This document shows, piece by piece, positions 52,402 through 61,970 of a DNA stretch of 61,970 nt. Position 1 is the stretch's first letter, and every line of letters begins with the position of its first letter. The DNA comes from an uncultured Fidelibacterota bacterium (GTDB lineage: Bacteria; Fidelibacterota; Marinisomatia; Marinisomatales; UBA8229): NCBI GenBank assembly GCA_913041945.1, contig CAJWIT010000005.1:1-61970 (forward strand). The letters are read 5' to 3'. Position numbers and translations under genes: made by a program. The notes under the pieces are model-generated. The model was not told the DNA's origin. It saw nothing but the letters and a program-made list of their open reading frames with translations, and searched no databases.

Positions 52402-54999
52402 CTACAGTCCATGCTCTTTTTTTAATTTATCCAAAACCTGTAGGGCTTGAATAGGGGTCATTTTGTTCAGATCAAGTGCTGCAATGGCTTTTTTCAACTC
52501 ATTTTCTTTCTGCTCAAAGATAGATAACTGATTAGACGCGGGAATGGCCTGTCGCGTTCCATGGATATTCTCTTGGCTGATATGAAAGTTTAATATCTCC
52601 TTTGCTCTTTCGATTACTTCAGATGGTAATCCAGCCATTTGAGCTACATGTATCCCATAACTTTTGTCGCTTATTCCAGGTAAAATTGTACGAAGAAAAA
52701 CTATCTTATCGCCAAATTCCTTCACTGCTGCCTGAAAATTTTCCAAACGTTCCAAGGTATTTTCAAGATCCGTCAACTCATGGTAATGAGTTGCGAAAAG
52801 GGTACGGGCACCAACATTTGAATGATTATGAAGATGTTCCGTGATTGACCAAGCGAGTGATAATCCATCAAATGTGGCTGTTCCCCTTCCAATTTCATCA
52901 AGGAGAATAAGACTCTCGGGGGTTGCATTATTTAGAATATTTGCTGCTTCATTCATCTCAACAAGAAAAGTGCTTTCTCCTCCAGCAAGATTATCACTTG
53001 CACCCACCCTGGTAAACAGGCGGTCAACGATGCCAATTTTCGCTTTCTTTACTGGAATAAAGGAACCAATTTGGCTCATTAATACCAAAAGTCCAACTTG
53101 GCGAAGATAAGTGGATTTCCCTGCCATATTTGGTCCGGTGATCAAATGTATTTGACTGGTTTTTATATTCATCAAGGTGTCATTTGGAATGAATCGCTCG
53201 GTAGCAGGGAGAAGTTGTTCTACTACAGGATGCCTTCCTGCTTTTATCTCCAGACTGGGCTCCGTAATTAGCTTAGGTCTTACATAACGATTTCTGACTG
53301 CCCTCACAGAAAATGAGGATAACACATCCAGACGGTGCAATATCTTTGCGTTAATTTGAATATTGCGTGTTTCCTGCAAAATGTCCCTGCATAATTCCTC
53401 AAATATCCGGATTTCAATTGATTCAATTTTTTCTTCAGCTGATAAAATTTTCTCTTCATATTGCTTCAACTCCGAGGTAATATATCTCTCAGAATTTACC
53501 AATGTTTGTTTTCTAGTATAAAAATCAGGTACCTTGTGCTGGTGAGTCTTTGTAACCTCAATATAATACCCAAATATTTTATTGAAACCAATTTTCAGGG
53601 ATGGAATTCCCGTAGCTTCCCGCTCAGAATTCTGAAGATCTGAAATCCATTGTTTCCCACCAGATGAAAGTGATCGGAGTTCATCCAATTCCTTGTCAAC
53701 ACCTTGAAGAATGAATCCGCCCCGCTTTAAACTAGCAGGTGCATCTTCCTTTACTTTCTCAACAATAAGTTTCACTGTTTTTTTCAGATCCTTGAACTGA
53801 CTTGACAACTCTGCAAGTGCTTTATTACCAGAATCTTCCAAGTCCTTTTTCAGGAATGGAATTAAACCTAAACTCGATCCAAGCCCCCACACATCTCTTG
53901 GAGTTGCTTTCAATCTGCTGATCTTTCCAAGAATTCGTTCAAGGTCAGATATTTTCCCTAAATAATTTCTGATAGAATGCAGAGATTTTTTCTTTTGAAC
54001 AAAAGCCTCAACAATATTTTGCCGAATATTCAAGCGGGACAAACCTGTCAATGGCTGATTTAACCACTGCTTCAAAAGACGGCCACCTCCCGCTGTTACA
54101 GTCTCATCTAAAGCATCCAACAACGTCCCATGAGTACCCTGTGTAGACAACGATTGAAATACTTCAAGATTTCGGAGTGTAAAACCATCAAGACTCATGA
54201 TTTCTTCTTCAACTATAGGTCGAACTGATGTGACATGATCAAGAGTACTGTTTAGAGTATTCCTTATATGGTATAAAACGACCCCGCCAGCCGTAATTCC
54301 GTGCACCAAATTATCACAACCAAAACCCTTCAATGAATTGGTTTCGAAATGACTTGTGAGAGTTCGATTGCTTTGATCAAAATTGAAGAGCCAATCTTCT
54401 ACTTGAGTCACAAATGGTTTGAGTTCACGATACCATTCGGTTGTTGAATAGGTAATATTTTCACCCAAAAGAATCTCCCTGGGAGCAAATTTTCGCAGAG
54501 ATTCTGTGAGCTGGGAAAGGGTACATTCTCCTAAAAAAAATTCCCCGGTGGATTGGTCTAAAATAGCATATCCTGCATCACTATGATGAAAATACACACT
54601 GGCGATGTAGGTATTGGATTTCTGATTCAATGCCTGATCAGAAGTAATAGTTCCAGGAGTTACAACCTCAATCACTTCACGCTTCACAATTCCTTTTGCA
54701 AGTTTTGGATCCTCAACCTGCTCACAAATAGCTACTCTATGCCCTGCATTGACCAGTTTAGGAAGATAATTATCCAAAGCATGATGTGGAAATCCTGCCA
54801 GAGGAACATCAGAGGCAGCTCCATTTGCTCTCTTGGTGAGAACGATACCAAGTATTTTAGCTGTAATTTTTGCATCTTCATTAAATGTTTCAAAAAAATC
54901 CCCCATCCGGAATAGAACTATACTTTCCGGGTGTTGACTCTTCACTTCAAGATACTGCCTCATCAGCGGTGTACCAGGAATCTCAGATTTTTTACTCAC
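52402..54999 (-). CDS. mutS: DNA mismatch repair protein MutS
   Basis: A full-length 865-residue MutS. The mismatch-recognition domain has the Phe-x-Glu motif in FRMGDFFETF (~32). Connector and lever domains follow (~130-560). The ATPase has Walker A GPNMAGKSTYLRQV (~620), ESTFLVEM, Walker B LILLDEIGRGTATFDG and the H-loop ATHYHEL. The C-terminus has the short helical tail. The start overlaps the selB stop by 4 bases, so mismatch repair and selenocysteine decoding genes are coupled here. mutL is not in the window. Confidence 0.97.
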   Translation of the reverse strand: MSKKSEIPGTPLMRQYLEVKSQHPESIVLFRMGDFFETFNEDAKITAKILGIVLTKRANGAASDVPLAGFPHHALDNYLPKLVNAGHRVAICEQVEDPKLAKGIVKREVIEVVTPGTITSDQALNQKSNTYIASVYFHHSDAGYAILDQSTGEFFLGECTLSQLTESLRKFAPREILLGENITYSTTEWYRELKPFVTQVEDWLFNFDQSNRTLTSHFETNSLKGFGCDNLVHGITAGGVVLYHIRNTLNSTLDHVTSVRPIVEEEIMSLDGFTLRNLEVFQSLSTQGTHGTLLDALDETVTAGGGRLLKQWLNQPLTGLSRLNIRQNIVEAFVQKKKSLHSIRNYLGKISDLERILGKISRLKATPRDVWGLGSSLGLIPFLKKDLEDSGNKALAELSSQFKDLKKTVKLIVEKVKEDAPASLKRGGFILQGVDKELDELRSLSSGGKQWISDLQNSEREATGIPSLKIGFNKIFGYYIEVTKTHQHKVPDFYTRKQTLVNSERYITSELKQYEEKILSAEEKIESIEIRIFEELCRDILQETRNIQINAKILHRLDVLSSFSVRAVRNRYVRPKLITEPSLEIKAGRHPVVEQLLPATERFIPNDTLMNIKTSQIHLITGPNMAGKSTYLRQVGLLVLMSQIGSFIPVKKAKIGIVDRLFTRVGASDNLAGGESTFLVEMNEAANILNNATPESLILLDEIGRGTATFDGLSLAWSITEHLHNHSNVGARTLFATHYHELTDLENTLERLENFQAAVKEFGDKIVFLRTILPGISDKSYGIHVAQMAGLPSEVIERAKEILNFHISQENIHGTRQAIPASNQLSIFEQKENELKKAIAALDLNKMTPIQALQVLDKLKKEHGL

Positions 55000-56858
55000 A
55001 ACCTGTCACCTTTAATCCGTCCATTCTCTTCACGGAAAGTGAACCTACTTTTATCCAGGTATTCAAGGAGAGGAATAGCAGTTTTTCGAGTAAGATGGGT
55101 TAATGTTTTAAAATCCGGGACACTCAGTTTTTCCTTTGATGAAAAATATGATTTCAGCATGGAAATAAGTTTATTAAAATTTGATTTTCCCAACCAAAGT
55201 CCAGCTTTTATTTCAATCGATTTTTCCTTTCCTTTTAGTACATGGAGTAACTCCAAAATAGAGTCATCCTCTAAATGGGTTTTTTCCAAGATATCATTCA
55301 AGGATTGAGGTGCAAACTTGCTTTGTGCTAATATTTCAGAAATCAAATCTGCTTTCTTCTGGTCACTTGAAGAAAGGGAAATTTCATGATCTCTAAGGGC
55401 ATATCCTGCCTCGATTGGCAAAATTAATTTTTCGTTCACACAATCATTTATAACCATTGCAAACCATGATTCACTAAAACGTAGTTCCTTCTGAATAATA
55501 TCTCCATTGATAGATTTTCGATATGGATGCTGTTTGTGGAATTGCTTTATTCTTTCCAAAAACACTTTCTTGGCAAATGAAACCTTTTCTGGATTATATA
55601 CCAGCTTATTTCTTATCTCCAATCTATTTTCAGTAATAAACTGTTGAATATCCTCAATAGAACAATGAAAAACCCTTCCCCATTCCATTTCTGTTTTGGG
55701 TTGTGTCCAAAACCGATCTATAAATTGGTTGAATCGCTGGGATCTAACTGTAGATAGAGTATTCATCCAATTACGTATTTCGTTCCATTTTCCTTTCGGA
55801 TTTGGATCAAGTATAACTCCGCCACCAATAGTATGCATAGGAGAATAAGAGCGCATGACAAACCGATCATCCATTGCTGCAACCAGAGGTTTTTCTAACC
55901 TGATTAACATTATACCTGACTCCCCTGTTTTCAGACGTTTTCCTGAAATAGTTACACGTCCAAGAACTTCTGCAGTCCCCAAATGAATTCGAACTCTTTG
56001 TTTGGATTTTAATTCCCATCCAATTCCCGGAATCATTTGAACATGAGCGATAAATATGGAAGTTGAAGCAATCCACCCCGGTTGGACTAACTCAGCACCG
56101 CGCCATGCATGGTTTTTCTCAATACCTACTACATTCACAGCAGCCCGGTCACCCATGGATACTGTTTCTGTTTTTTCACCATGGCTCTGAAGACCTCGTA
56201 CTTTGCATTGTTGCCCAACAGGCTGACAATAAATTTCATCACCGACTGAAAGACTACCAGAAATGACCGTCCCTGTTACAACAATACCAAATCCGGTTTT
56301 TAGGAATACTCGATCTATGGGGAGTCGAAAAAATCCCCGGTCCAAAGTAAACCTCACTTTTTCAGCCTCATGTAACAGTGCCTGTCGCAATTCGGAAATC
56401 CCGGATTCTGGATTTACAGAAGTACGAATAATAGGGGCAGATTCTAAACTGGTACCAGCTACAATTTCATGTATTTCCATTTCAACCAGATCAAGCCAAT
56501 CCGGATCGCTAACCATATCCGTTTTTGTGAGTACAATCACACCCTGAGGAATACACAACAAAGAGAGGATTTGAAGATGCTCCTTAGTCTGAGGCATGAC
56601 ACCATCATCCGCTGCCACGACAACCAGAGCAATATGAATAGTTGAGACACCAGAAACCATGTTCCTGATAAACTTCTCATGTCCAGGTACATCAATAATG
56701 GTAATATCTTTATTGAGGAATGCAAAACCTAAGTCAATGGTCATACCGCGAGATTTTTCTTCTTGGAGACGATCTGTGTCAACCCCTGTCAAGGCCTTGA
56801 CTAATGCTGTCTTCCCATGATCAATGTGACCGGCAGTCCCGATGACAATTTGATTCAT
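54996..56858 (-). CDS. selB: Selenocysteine-specific elongation factor SelB
   Basis: SelB is an EF-Tu-like GTPase that delivers Sec-tRNA to UGA codons marked by a SECIS hairpin. The 620 residues are full length (E. coli has 614). G motifs are [16 protein letters not shown] (~8-23), DVPGHEKF (~56) and TKTD (~110). Domains II-III follow to ~380. Four winged-helix domains occupy the C-terminal ~230 residues, ending in [19 protein letters not shown], the RNA-binding part. It starts 3 bases after selA. Its presence implies active selenocysteine use; a candidate target is the lipoprotein at 29217-30392. Confidence 0.97.
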
Positions 56859-56861
56859 TAC

Positions 56862-58229
56862 TTAAACCTGGTTTATTACATCAATCAGAAGTGCAACCTG
56901 ATTGGGTAAAATCGTCTTCAAATCGATGAAGAAACGATTGCCGGATATGTACCCTACAACAGGAGTTTTTCCAGTCCGGAATCGGTACGCTAATTCTGAG
57001 ATTTTTTGATTTTTTGGGTAAAATCTCAAGGCCATGCTTTCAATTCCACAAGCAGGTAAAGAACCACTCCCGGCTTCAACAGTTGATTCAATTAAAGTAA
57101 TACCTAATCTGGATTTCCTTTTTGTGGAAATACTCTGAATTATTTTTCTGCCGCGTTTCCTTAACATGACCCGTTTGGTTGATAAGAGTGAAAGCGTCAA
57201 ATTATCCTTGGTGACTTCTTCAGAACGGTACGTTCTGAGAGTTTCTTCCATAAGGGCAATGGTAAATTTTCCACATCGAATCGTCCGGTAAATCGGGTTT
57301 AGTTCCATCCGTTTCAACAGACGATTTTTTCCAACAATTATCCCTGCTTGGGGGCCCCCCAACAACTTGTCACCAGAAAAGGTGATCACCACTGCACCAG
57401 ATTTGACAACATCCTGAACGGGGATTTCCTCGGGAAGATCTCTTTTTGAAAGTTTGATCAATGCACCACTACCCAGATCTGCCATTACCGGAATGTGTTT
57501 CTTTTTCCCCAATTCAACCAATTCATGTAGAGAGACCTCCTTTGTGAACCCCTTTACAACATAATTGCTCGTATGAACCCAAAGAATTAACCCTGTCTTC
57601 GTGTTGATTGCTTTTTTATAATCATTCAAGTGTGTCCGATTTGTTGTACCCACTTCTTTGAGAAAACAATTACTTTTCCTGATAATATCAGGAATCCGGA
57701 AAGAACCGCCTATTTCAACTTCCTGTCCTCGGGAAATAATGACTTCCTTACCTTCAGCCAATGTATTCAGAGCTAAAAGAACAGCTGCTGCATTGTTATT
57801 AACCATAAGGCTGTTTTCAGAACCTGTAATAGCGGCACAATGATCACGAACATGGTCAAGTCGATTTCCACGCGTACCTGTTTCCAGATTAAATTCTAAA
57901 TTGGAATACCCTCCGAGACGATTTATGACATTCTTTAGTCTTGTCTTTTGGATGGGCGCTCTCCCAAATCCTGTGTGAAGCACAATCCCAGTTCCATTAA
58001 TAATATTCTTCATGCTGGGTTGACAAAACTGGCCAACTTTTTGAACTATTTTCTTTGTGATTTCACTACGTGACTCAGCTAATTTATTTAACTTTGCCTG
58101 CTTCCGATACCAAGAAATTTCCTTATTAACAAAATATGTTATAATACTATTATCTAGCTTATTTAAGTCTTTTATCTCAAGTAATACTTCAGATACTGAT
58201 GGGAGATTTTGAAACTGATTTTTACTCAT
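56862..58229 (-). CDS. selA: L-seryl-tRNA(Sec) selenium transferase
   Basis: SelA converts Ser-tRNA(Sec) to Sec-tRNA(Sec) using selenophosphate and PLP. The 455 residues have the expected N-terminal helical domain (SVSEVLLEI), NGTGIVLHTGFGRAP (~78-92), NNNAAAVLLAL (~144), DLGSG (251-255) and the PLP lysine K288 in SGDKLLGGPQAG. It starts the selA-selB-mutS run. selD and the tRNA-Sec gene are not recognised in this window. Confidence 0.97.
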   Translation of the reverse strand: MSKNQFQNLPSVSEVLLEIKDLNKLDNSIITYFVNKEISWYRKQAKLNKLAESRSEITKKIVQKVGQFCQPSMKNIINGTGIVLHTGFGRAPIQKTRLKNVINRLGGYSNLEFNLETGTRGNRLDHVRDHCAAITGSENSLMVNNNAAAVLLALNTLAEGKEVIISRGQEVEIGGSFRIPDIIRKSNCFLKEVGTTNRTHLNDYKKAINTKTGLILWVHTSNYVVKGFTKEVSLHELVELGKKKHIPVMADLGSGALIKLSKRDLPEEIPVQDVVKSGAVVITFSGDKLLGGPQAGIIVGKNRLLKRMELNPIYRTIRCGKFTIALMEETLRTYRSEEVTKDNLTLSLLSTKRVMLRKRGRKIIQSISTKRKSRLGITLIESTVEAGSGSLPACGIESMALRFYPKNQKISELAYRFRTGKTPVVGYISGNRFFIDLKTILPNQVALLIDVINQV

Positions 58230-59528: not shown

Positions 59529-59870
59529 CTACCTTTTTTCGGTTATTCTTGATGCTTTACCAGTCAGTTTTTTCAAATAGTTCAGTTTTGCACGACGCAC
59601 TTTTCCACGACGGTCAACTGTAATGGAGGCAATCAGTGGAGAGTGCAGAGGAAATATTCTTTCTACTCCGACCCCTCCGGATATTTTCCAGACTGTGAAG
59701 GTCTCCTCTATTCCTCCACCTTTTCGCCCGATTACTACTCCCTTGAAACGCTGAATCCTCTCTTTACCTCCTTCAACGACTCGGAAATCCACGGATACCG
59801 TATCTCCAGGATTAAAATCAGGAATGTCATTTTTCAATAATTCTGTTGTAACTTCTCGAAGCTGATTCAT
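59529..59870 (-). CDS. rplS: 50S ribosomal protein L19
   Basis: L19 lies at the 30S-50S interface. The 113 residues match the family: [29 protein letters not shown], the central [21 protein letters not shown], and the C-terminal [18 protein letters not shown]. It is the last gene of the run (rpsP)-KH-rimM-trmD-rplS, a widely conserved order. It is followed by a strong terminator. Confidence 0.97.
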
Positions 59871-59888: not shown

Positions 59889-60590
59889 TCAAATTTTATT
59901 CATTTTTTCCAAAAGATCCGGGCGTCGTTCATGTGTCCGGATTTCTTTTTGTTTCTTTCGCCAATCTTCAATTTTTTTGTGGTGACCTCCAAAAAGGACA
60001 TCCGGTACTTTCATCCCATCAATTATTTTTGGACGGGTATAACAGGGTGTATCCAAAAAATCTCCTGCGAACGAATCTGTCATGGCTGACTCATAGGTAT
60101 TTAGAACACCAGGCATAAGGCGGACAATACTGTCTATCATGACCAAAGCGGGCAACTCACCACTCGTGACAATATAATCACCTAATGAGTATTCATGAGT
60201 AACATACTTTTCAACGATCCGTTCATCAATTCCCTTGTAATGGCCACAAATGAAAATCAAATTTTCTGCATTTGTATTCTCCACAGCACTTTGGTGAGTC
60301 CACTGTTCACCTTGGGGAGAAGGATAAATAACTCTCGTTTCGTTTTTCCCGTCAAAATCTTCCAGAGTATGGTCAATGGCTTTAAACATGGGTTCAGCCA
60401 TCATCACCATCCCACTTCCTCCACCAAATGGCTTATCATCAACCTGGCGGTAATTACCTATCCCAAAATCTCGTAAGTTCACTACAATAAACTGTACTAA
60501 ATCTCTTTCAACACCTTTTCTCAAAATAGAATTTTGGATAAAAGTGTCGATACTATCAGGAACAGGTGTAATAATTGCAATCCGTTTCAA
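59889..60590 (-). CDS. trmD: tRNA (guanine37-N1)-methyltransferase
   Basis: TrmD methylates G37 next to the anticodon, preventing +1 frameshifts. The 233 residues contain the trefoil-knot AdoMet site (ENLIFICGHYKGIDERI near 88-104, and YSLGDYIVTSGELPALVMID near 112-131), the DDKPFGGGSGMVM loop (~52) and the C-terminal HHKKIEDWRKKQ. The first ~20 residues (RIAIITPVPDSIDTFI) differ slightly from the usual FP-x-MF block. It overlaps rimM by 4 bases. Confidence 0.96.
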   Translation of the reverse strand: MKRIAIITPVPDSIDTFIQNSILRKGVERDLVQFIVVNLRDFGIGNYRQVDDKPFGGGSGMVMMAEPMFKAIDHTLEDFDGKNETRVIYPSPQGEQWTHQSAVENTNAENLIFICGHYKGIDERIVEKYVTHEYSLGDYIVTSGELPALVMIDSIVRLMPGVLNTYESAMTDSFAGDFLDTPCYTRPKIIDGMKVPDVLFGGHHKKIEDWRKKQKEIRTHERRPDLLEKMNKI

Positions 60591-61090
60591 TTTAATAGAC
60601 CATCCATAGGTGTTATTATAATCAGTTTTTCATCCAAAAGAATCGCCTTAATAATCTCAGGGACAACCGGTATCAGGACTTCTTCTTCTCGATTTCTGAT
60701 CACATAAACGTCATTCGTTGGAAGCCAAAGAATTTCCATCAACTTTCCAATTAAATCCCCTGAAACTGTCTTCACAGTACATCCAATCAAATCTTTTGCG
60801 ATCCAATTAATTTGATCACCGTCCTTGACTGACGCAAAAATATATTGACCTATCAGAGATTCAGCTTCATCCCATGTATCCACCCCTTCAAAGCGATAAC
60901 GAATGTGTTTACCAACACCAATTTTATTCCGAAGTTTTACTTCCCTGCTCAACAGTTCAGATGCACCCAAATGCAAGGCTTTATCTTCTACATAAGCCTG
61001 GAAATACCGAGACAAAGGCCTAACTCGAAATTCACCATATTGGCCTGCTACTTTTGTAACTTGACCAATAGCAAACAGTTTATCCATCAT
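60587..61090 (-). CDS. rimM: Ribosome maturation factor RimM
   Basis: RimM binds S19 and helps assemble the 30S head. About 167 residues run from the ATG at 61088-61090 (another ATG follows directly, and the frame is open to a TTG at 61099). The N-terminal domain has AIGQVTKVAGQYGEFRVRPLS and the GVDTWDEAESLIGQYIFA block, and the C-terminal PRC barrel contains DLIGCTVKT and LIGKLMEILWLPTNDVYVI. It overlaps the KH gene by 11 bases and trmD by 4. Confidence 0.93.
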   Translation of the reverse strand: MMDKLFAIGQVTKVAGQYGEFRVRPLSRYFQAYVEDKALHLGASELLSREVKLRNKIGVGKHIRYRFEGVDTWDEAESLIGQYIFASVKDGDQINWIAKDLIGCTVKTVSGDLIGKLMEILWLPTNDVYVIRNREEEVLIPVVPEIIKAILLDEKLIIITPMDGLLN

Positions 61091-61325
61091 TTTTATCAAT
61101 CACATCAAGTTTGGCGCGCTTCCCACGTTTTTTTGCATTGATGGCAAAAACAAGTGACCTCAGGGCAGAGATATTTTTTCCACCTTTTCCGATCACCTTA
61201 CCAAAATCACCATCACCTACGGTCAATTCATATATAATTTGTTGCTCAGTTTCAATTGGGTTTATGGATACTTCATCAGGTTTGTCCACCAGTTCCTTAA
61301 CAACCATTTCAATAAATTTTTCCAT
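61080..61325 (-). CDS. khpA: KH-domain RNA-binding protein (KhpA/YlqC type)
   Basis: An 81-residue single KH domain. The central GKVIGKGGKNISALRSL carries the GxxG RNA-binding loop (here GKGG). The flanking EMVVKELVDKPDEVSI N-terminus and AINAKKRGKRAKLDV C-terminus match KhpA/YlqC, a global RNA-binding protein that pairs with KhpB in Firmicutes. A GGAG site precedes the ATG. It lies between the S16-like tail and rimM, its usual place. Confidence 0.93.
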   Translation of the reverse strand: MEKFIEMVVKELVDKPDEVSINPIETEQQIIYELTVGDGDFGKVIGKGGKNISALRSLVFAINAKKRGKRAKLDVIDKNDG

Positions 61326-61355: not shown

Positions 61356-61970
61356 TTAATTGTTACTATCGTTTTTCTTTTCAGAGTCAGATAGAGCTTC
61401 CTCACCCGTATCTTTTTCTTGGTCACCATTTTCTGAAGAAACATCACCTGCCCTTTTTAATTCTTTTTTATCCGATTTCTTTTCTACAATAGTTTTTTCA
61501 ATTGGTTCCCCTGATTCCGGTTCTTCTTCTTCAGTTTTTCCATCATCACCACCTTCTGCCGGTTCCTCAGCTTTTTCTTCTACATCAGTCGTTTCAGCTG
61601 ATTCTTCCTTCTCACTTTTTTCAGCTGGTACTTCTTCCCGGGTCTCCTCTTCTTTAGAATCTGCTACTGCTTCAATTGTTTCTTCGGTCGGTTCATCGAC
61701 ACCTGACTCCGGGGAAGTCTCTTCTTCCGCAACATCTTTATCTTTCTCATCACTTGTCGAATCGCTTCCTTCTTCAGCTAATTCTTCGGTTTTCGGTTCT
61801 TCTTCTTCAGTTTTTCCATCATCACCACCTTCTGCCGGTTCCTCAGCTTTTTCTTCTACATCAGTCGTTTCAGCTGATTCTTCCTTCTCACTTTTTTCAG
61901 CTGGTACTTCTTCCCGGGTCTCCTCTTCTTTAGAATCTGCTACTGCTTCAATTGTTTCTTCGGTCGGTTC
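61356..61970 (-). CDS. rpsP: C-terminal acidic extension, probably of 30S ribosomal protein S16 (partial)
   Basis: The minus-strand frame is open from the right edge to TAA (61356-61358): 204 residues of Glu/Ser/Lys/Asp/Thr-rich low-complexity sequence, for example EEEPESGEPIEKTIVEKKSD and the end SDSEKKNDSNN. The globular part is outside the window. Position directly before khpA-rimM-trmD-rplS, where rpsP belongs, and the known C-terminal tails of S16 in Bacteroidetes-like bacteria suggest S16, although this tail is unusually long. It contains a perfect long DNA repeat (see 61518-61970). Confidence 0.6.
   Translation of the reverse strand, partial: EPTEETIEAVADSKEEETREEVPAEKSEKEESAETTDVEEKAEEPAEGGDDGKTEEEEPKTEELAEEGSDSTSDEKDKDVAEEETSPESGVDEPTEETIEAVADSKEEETREEVPAEKSEKEESAETTDVEEKAEEPAEGGDDGKTEEEEPESGEPIEKTIVEKKSDKKELKRAGDVSSENGDQEKDTGEEALSDSEKKNDSNN
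61518..61970. repeat. Long direct repeat, 177 identical bases with 276-base period
   Basis: Bases 61518-61694 and 61794-61970 are identical by eye over all 177 positions; the second copy is cut by the window edge. The period of 276 bases equals 92 codons, so the acidic reading frame is preserved. Perfect identity at synonymous positions implies a recent duplication, ongoing homogenisation or an assembly duplication. Between the copies lies a diverged 99-base spacer. Confidence 0.93.

Follow-up and report, generated by a model that had tools for sequence, protein, structure and literature searches.

The window ends within a gene for ribosomal protein bS16

The stretch of DNA analyzed here (61,970 bases, referred to as the window) is an entire contig (C5) of the genome assembly G000, which comprises 1.83 Mb in 119 contigs and is 87% complete, and its right edge is the contig end. 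The final 615 bases (61356..61970, minus strand) form an open reading frame of 204 residues that has its stop codon at the 61356 end and continues past the contig edge. The encoded sequence is acidic and of low complexity, with 65 Glu and 19 Asp residues and a net charge of -59. It is followed on the same strand by khpA, the next gene of the operon, which encodes a KH-domain protein (61080..61325; PF13083, E 8.6e-19), and by rimM (60587..61099; PF24986 and PF01782), trmD (59889..60590; PF01746, E 3.6e-54), and rplS (59529..59870; PF01245, E 1e-45). The last of these codes for a bL19 of 113 residues without an acidic tail. In other bacteria, the gene for ordinary bS16 has the same operon neighbors.

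The sole S16 domain found in G000 by profile search (PF00886, E 1.9e-25) is located outside the window, on contig C23 (251-433, minus strand). The last 55 bases of the window are identical to the first 55 bases of C23, and the reading frame of C23 stays open into this overlap. Joining the two contigs places the S16 domain and the acidic tail in one frame of at least 338 residues with a TTG start codon, of which C23 holds the 5′ portion and the window the 3′ portion of rpsP. The scores were 88.5 bits for PF00886 (curated cut-off 27) and 104.8 bits for TIGR00002 (cut-off 45.3), and with both profiles matching above their cut-offs the possibility that the protein is not an S16 was rejected. The gene ffh lies upstream of rpsP on C23, giving the order ffh-rpsP-khpA-rimM-trmD-rplS in G000, in which the join of C5 and C23 relies on the 55-base overlap. 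The original prediction had placed a Glu-rich tail of at least 204 residues at the end of a probable S16 protein, taking the gene before khpA-rimM-trmD-rplS for rpsP. The tail, the S16 domain in frame with it, the profile matches of the operon genes and the presence of ffh upstream bear this out. The feature in the window represents the C-terminal portion of a true bS16 ribosomal protein from Candidatus Neomarinimicrobiota, which would be incorporated into the 30S subunit. The protein consists of an ordinary S16 domain (residues 1-81), an arm (about residues 82-130), and an acidic tail that comprises at least 200 residues and is predicted to be disordered.

Elsewhere in the window, the region 54996-58229 (minus strand) contains two frames whose sequences resemble SelB and SelA, which suggests that the organism uses selenocysteine.

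An exact in-frame repeat in the tail

The tail-encoding sequence contains two copies of a 177-base (59-codon) unit on the minus strand, one nearer the stop codon (61518..61694) and one nearer the S16 domain (61794..61970), separated by a linker of 99 bases (61695..61793). The copies are identical at 177 of 177 positions and stand in frame at a period of 276 bases. The copy nearer the S16 domain ends at the contig end and has its last 55 bases in common with the start of C23. The C-terminal segment past the repeats (61359..61517, minus strand) is mostly conserved in an alignment with G001, a different species of the same genus. The base after the repeat differs between the copies (A at 61695, C in C23 past the overlap), which shows that 177 bases is the true repeat length and that both contigs stop precisely at the boundary of the repeat. 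Where an assembly graph with k=55 branches at a repeat, an overlap of 55 bases results. What is seen here is therefore a lower bound for the number of repeat-linker units, with at least two copies in G000. TRF at default settings did not list the 177-base repeat. When the codons of 108 tails of other genes from the phylum (a set excluding the tail of the window itself) were shuffled 20 times each, an exact repeat of more than 30 bases never appeared, which argues that the repeat is not a chance outcome of codon composition.

The history of the repeat was followed in the genus. G002, which represents another species, has the same repeat-linker-repeat order with differences of its own. Its contig C41 carries the same linker, and across linker and repeat pieces 191 of 203 bases (C41:1-203) are identical to G000. 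At locus L017 of this genome, a run of 369 N (L017:204-572) interrupts the S16 repeat at a point where 41 bases would be enough for one copy, and a further repeat copy may be hidden there. In G001 the repeated unit is present once, in a protein of 307 residues, compared to at least two copies and at least 338 residues in G000. The variable tail length expected in the original prediction is thus seen between species of the genus. In G003, contig C30 begins (C30:1) within the repeat and matches up to window position 61547. In total, three of the four genomes of the genus break or have a gap within the S16 tail.

The original prediction of a perfect 177-base repeat with a 276-base period was correct, and so was the in-frame character of the duplication that it proposed. 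The supposed recency of this event fared less well, since G002 shares the repeat-linker-repeat order, which makes a simply recent duplication improbable. If the two copies of G000 had been separate since the split of G000 and G002, about 9.7 differences between them would be expected, and none was observed. Given the common order, the perfect identity in G000 reflects later homogenization, an independent duplication, or copies collapsed by the assembler. An assembler effect would mean that a collapsed repeat was traversed twice and that the true copies differ or do not number two. It would account for the missing differences and for a contig end situated at the repeat edge with the 55-base overlap expected of a graph of k=55. 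We nevertheless consider it doubtful that the exact repeat is partly an assembly product, because G002 was assembled separately and shows the same order with its own differences, and because other genomes of the phylum likewise contain exact repeats of 100-317 bases with in-frame periods. Long acidic tails are also present in the single-contig genomes G062 and G132, which argues that the tail as such is not an assembly product. This question bears on the perfect repeat only and is compatible with each of the explanations for the tail that are considered below.

Distribution, length and charge of the extension in the phylum

An S16 match was obtained in 54 of 61 genomes (G000 and 60 relatives, those with names being Candidatus Neomarinimicrobiota or Marinimicrobia), and all 54 proteins carry the extension. 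In the phylum, 152 of the 175 genomes searched gave a match. From these 152 genomes, 114 were fetched, in which the gene was complete in 98 cases, open at a contig end in 15 cases, and interrupted by N in one case (L017). The figures for length and charge refer to the 98 complete genes, the 15 open-ended rows and L017 having been dropped. Sixty of the fetched genomes were hand-picked, and some with matches near a contig end were omitted, so that broken tails are undercounted.

The complete S16 proteins have a length of 138-461 residues (median 241.5), with at least 200 residues in 71 and at least 300 residues in 23 of the 98 proteins. A basic, conserved sequence is the norm for ribosomal proteins. 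The tail, defined as the part beyond the first 45 residues past the core, has a negative net charge in 96 of 98 cases (median -25.5, extreme -117), as does the whole S16 protein in 81 of 98. The median acidic fraction of the tails is 0.38, the median for aromatic residues plus His is 0, and Cys does not occur in any of the 98. Against the trend, six of the 98 complete genes encode tails with a net charge of -2 to +3, near neutral or slightly positive, indicating that a strongly negative tail is not required. In some proteins the tail is short and extends about 14-20 residues past the arm. Of 80 loci compared, the 68 that belong to other groups, mostly Bacillota and some Planctomycetota, served as controls, and in all of these S16 has 81-107 residues. 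A strain-specific oddity was rejected, as the extension is present in every S16 of the phylum that was examined. The acidic tail is unusual, as had been claimed, in comparison to E. coli or Bacillus, but not within the phylum, and also not in comparison to the bS16 proteins of 188 and 192 residues from Bacteroidota.

In G003, G006, and G007 no S16 match was obtained even with a protein query, in a search run without a positive genome as control. For G003 the absence is probably an assembly loss, as one of its contigs starts within the tail repeat.

A deviating C-terminus was observed at locus L035 (G050), where the last approximately 25 residues of S16 (LKKLKKKLLLKKHQLKN onward) resemble the acidic repeat in another frame. 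A frameshift within the repeats is the probable cause.

Tails of other ribosomal proteins

Among the ribosomal proteins read, S16 has the most extreme tail. Open frames for uS2 have 270-536 residues where the gene is in one piece (15 of 16 genomes), and bS6 has 114-204 residues in 15 of 16 genomes. In G000, uS2 (L231:860-1873, minus strand) carries a charged low-complexity C-terminal tail of about 100 residues and bS6 (L232:292-735, plus strand) one of about 50 residues. In the S12-to-L17 cluster of G000, whose gene names we presume from order and sequence except for L17, no ribosomal protein has a net charge below -3 in its last 40 residues. A halophile-like acidification of all ribosomal proteins was rejected for this cluster of G000, where such tails are missing. 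The presence of tails on uS2 and bS6 and their absence from the S12-to-L17 cluster suggest a site-specific tolerance or demand.

In G011, a single open frame of 534 residues (L234:641-2245, minus strand) comprises uS2 and a second part, presumably EF-Ts from its appearance, linked by a charged tail. This is either a true fusion or the consequence of a lost stop codon.

Constraint and repeat turnover in the tail

Comparison of G000 with G001 gave dN/dS ratios of about 0.07 for the core, about 0.09 for residues 82-130, and about 0.45 for the tail. By this measure, constraint on the arm is as strong as on the core, and constraint on the tail is weak. In single-base amino-acid changes touching an acidic residue, acidity was retained in 43 of 139 cases compared to 26.2 expected (p 0.0007). 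This total covers 11 of 17 pairs, six pairs with an identity below 0.45 being omitted (42 acid-preserving of 112 changes), and the test is weak because the aligner favors Glu-Asp matches and some sequences occur in more than one pair. The preservation of acidic residues is a modest sign, open to alignment bias.

For 53 of 107 tails, the longest exact repeat surpassed that of every one of 20 codon shuffles, and in all 53 its offset was divisible by three. Six tails of less than 60 bases were skipped in this tally and L017 was dropped, because its excess was due to N (54 of 108 if it is included). The longest exact in-frame repeats among the tails reach up to 317 bases (G098). Contig ends were also distributed unevenly around the gene. 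Among the 150 matches listed, out of a larger number, a distance of no more than 600 bases to a contig end was found for 12 of 84 on the tail side and for 1 of 66 on the opposite side (p 0.007). Within 1000 bases the numbers were 13 and 3 (p 0.035), and within 2000 bases, with 15 of 84 and 9 of 66 (p 0.51), the asymmetry was gone.

These data bear on the question whether the tail has a role at all. It might have arisen by nearly neutral growth, as a tolerated low-complexity sequence on an exposed C-terminus without a specific role, in which purine-rich GAA and GAG codons expand by in-frame recombination under weak selection against insolubility or positive charge. The highly variable length of the 98 complete proteins, the high dN/dS of the tail relative to the remaining protein, the frequency of repeats, and the existence of near-neutral tails are all in line with such an origin. 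It fits less well that every S16 of the phylum examined has the extension, that the dN/dS of the tail is below 1, that acidic residues are retained somewhat above expectation, and that uS2 and bS6 have tails whereas the proteins of the S12-to-L17 cluster do not. Overall, we regard nearly neutral growth as possible but not probable, a little behind the brush proposed below.

A predicted ordered arm and disordered tail in comparison with known bS16 types

For the S16 protein of L058 (Ca. Neomarinimicrobiota NIOZ-UU68), a predicted structural model was inspected. The pLDDT values per ten-residue block are 86-98 up to residue 120, and the model contains two helices beyond the normal S16 domain (residues 81-89 and 94-117). 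The blocks from residue 131 onward, which form the acidic tail, have pLDDT values of 46-60, and the acidic part is thus predicted to be disordered. An ordered helical arm directly after the core is seen in this model of a relative, and residues 82-130 have a low dN/dS. Searches with Foldseek and VIA-align using the L058 model matched bS16 of many ribosomes. The match of widest extent was to P. gingivalis bS16 (9i5v; model residues 2-124, Z 13.5, rmsd 4.1, 109 residues aligned), and other matches of similar Z mostly covered the core only.

Long bS16 proteins with a disordered tail are already known from structures and NCBIfam models; the length, the acidity, and the repeat dynamics of the tail across the phylum exceed what is known from these. 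The ordinary bS16, with 82 residues in the commonest PDB entry and about 90 in Bacillota, has the same core domain and no tail. The long bS16 proteins of Bacteroidota (P. gingivalis, 9i5v/9i5x, 192 residues; F. johnsoniae, 7jil, 188 residues) resemble the phylum S16 in that the S16 domain is followed by a helical charged extension. Their distal extension is unmodelled, with 118 or 97 of 192 residues modelled for P. gingivalis and 85 of 188 for F. johnsoniae, and it comprises about 100 residues, whereas that of the phylum S16 reaches up to 380 residues and is built from repeats. The sequence match to the long bS16 of this group (query 1-179, E 2e-27) spans the core, the arm, and the beginning of the tail. 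With NF011094 (PRK14521; 186 positions), presumably the Bacteroidota model, three proteins of the phylum scored 105.8, 95.7, and 112.2 bits, below the cut-off of 209. The score for NF011093 (PRK14520), presumably the actinobacterial long bS16 group, was 95 bits and also below its cut-off (165).

The actinobacterial bS16 proteins also have a C-terminal extension, in which a short helix is followed by an unresolved tail, but with 65-74 residues it is shorter than in the phylum S16. In M. smegmatis bS16, 30 of the 74 extension residues are reported to form a short helix in contact with uS4 (PMC6133939), and the 65-residue extension of C. acnes bS16 binds uS4, its C-terminal end being without density (PMC10085706). 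The latter authors place the extended 30S proteins of C. acnes near the mRNA entry (PMC10085706). The contact of the proximal extension with uS4 in both species and this placement would agree with a specific partner or place of the tail, e.g., at the mRNA entry side near uS4, uS3, and uS5, where it could tune initiation or hibernation. Such a specific role seems very unlikely, as no conserved tail motif was seen by eye in the 54 phylum S16 proteins, the tail sequences turn over rapidly, and much of the tail is absent from the PDB models of F. johnsoniae and P. gingivalis. Searches of open PMC texts listed no description of acidic S16 tails in Marinimicrobia or of their length and repeat dynamics across a phylum, and no bS16 was found in PMC9976891.

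In C. acnes, the bS16 arm is reported to accompany a short h17/V3 of 16S rRNA (PMC10085706). In the relatives, the 16S anchor distance was 175-176 bases in 18 of 19 measurable loci and 169 bases in one (20 examined). The same distance is 174 in E. coli numbering. The distances are from relatives only, there being no 16S in the G000 assembly, and were taken without a C. acnes or E. coli control sequence. A compensation for a short h17 in the style of C. acnes is not supported by these values.

A possible role of the tail

The reading that we prefer, and to which we give an even chance, is that the tail forms a disordered polyanionic brush which is anchored by the ordered arm and exerts its effect by charge and bulk. 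By analogy with the mycobacterial and Cutibacterium proteins, we infer that the conserved, helical, and mostly basic arm (about residues 82-130) probably lies against the body of the 30S subunit and extends to uS4. The tail would then act via its charge and not via its sequence, as a polyanionic brush on the solvent-exposed side of this subunit. It would stop the basic S16 domain and the adjoining surface from sticking to stray RNA or other ribosomes, either during assembly or afterwards. The length of the tail changes via in-frame duplication and homogenization of short repeats. Fast sequence turnover is predicted both by the brush and by neutral growth. A more far-reaching proposal combines several 30S tails (bS16 with more than 200 residues, uS2 with about 100, and bS6 with about 50) in one adaptive brush, the length of which would be tuned by repeat turnover and which would set ribosome spacing, hibernation, or mRNA loading; we consider this joint reading unlikely.

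A disordered tail that is present throughout the phylum, mostly acidic, rapidly evolving, and sometimes longer than the rest of S16 means that the ribosome surface can bear a large element defined by charge only. The tail may also explain broken or missing rpsP genes in assemblies of the phylum, as seen at the contig ends within 600 bases on its side (12 of 84) and in three of the four genomes of the genus, and such broken genes could bias marker-gene completeness estimates and ribosomal-protein trees. Finally, the tails represent a natural length series for the roles of disordered acidic regions on the ribosome.
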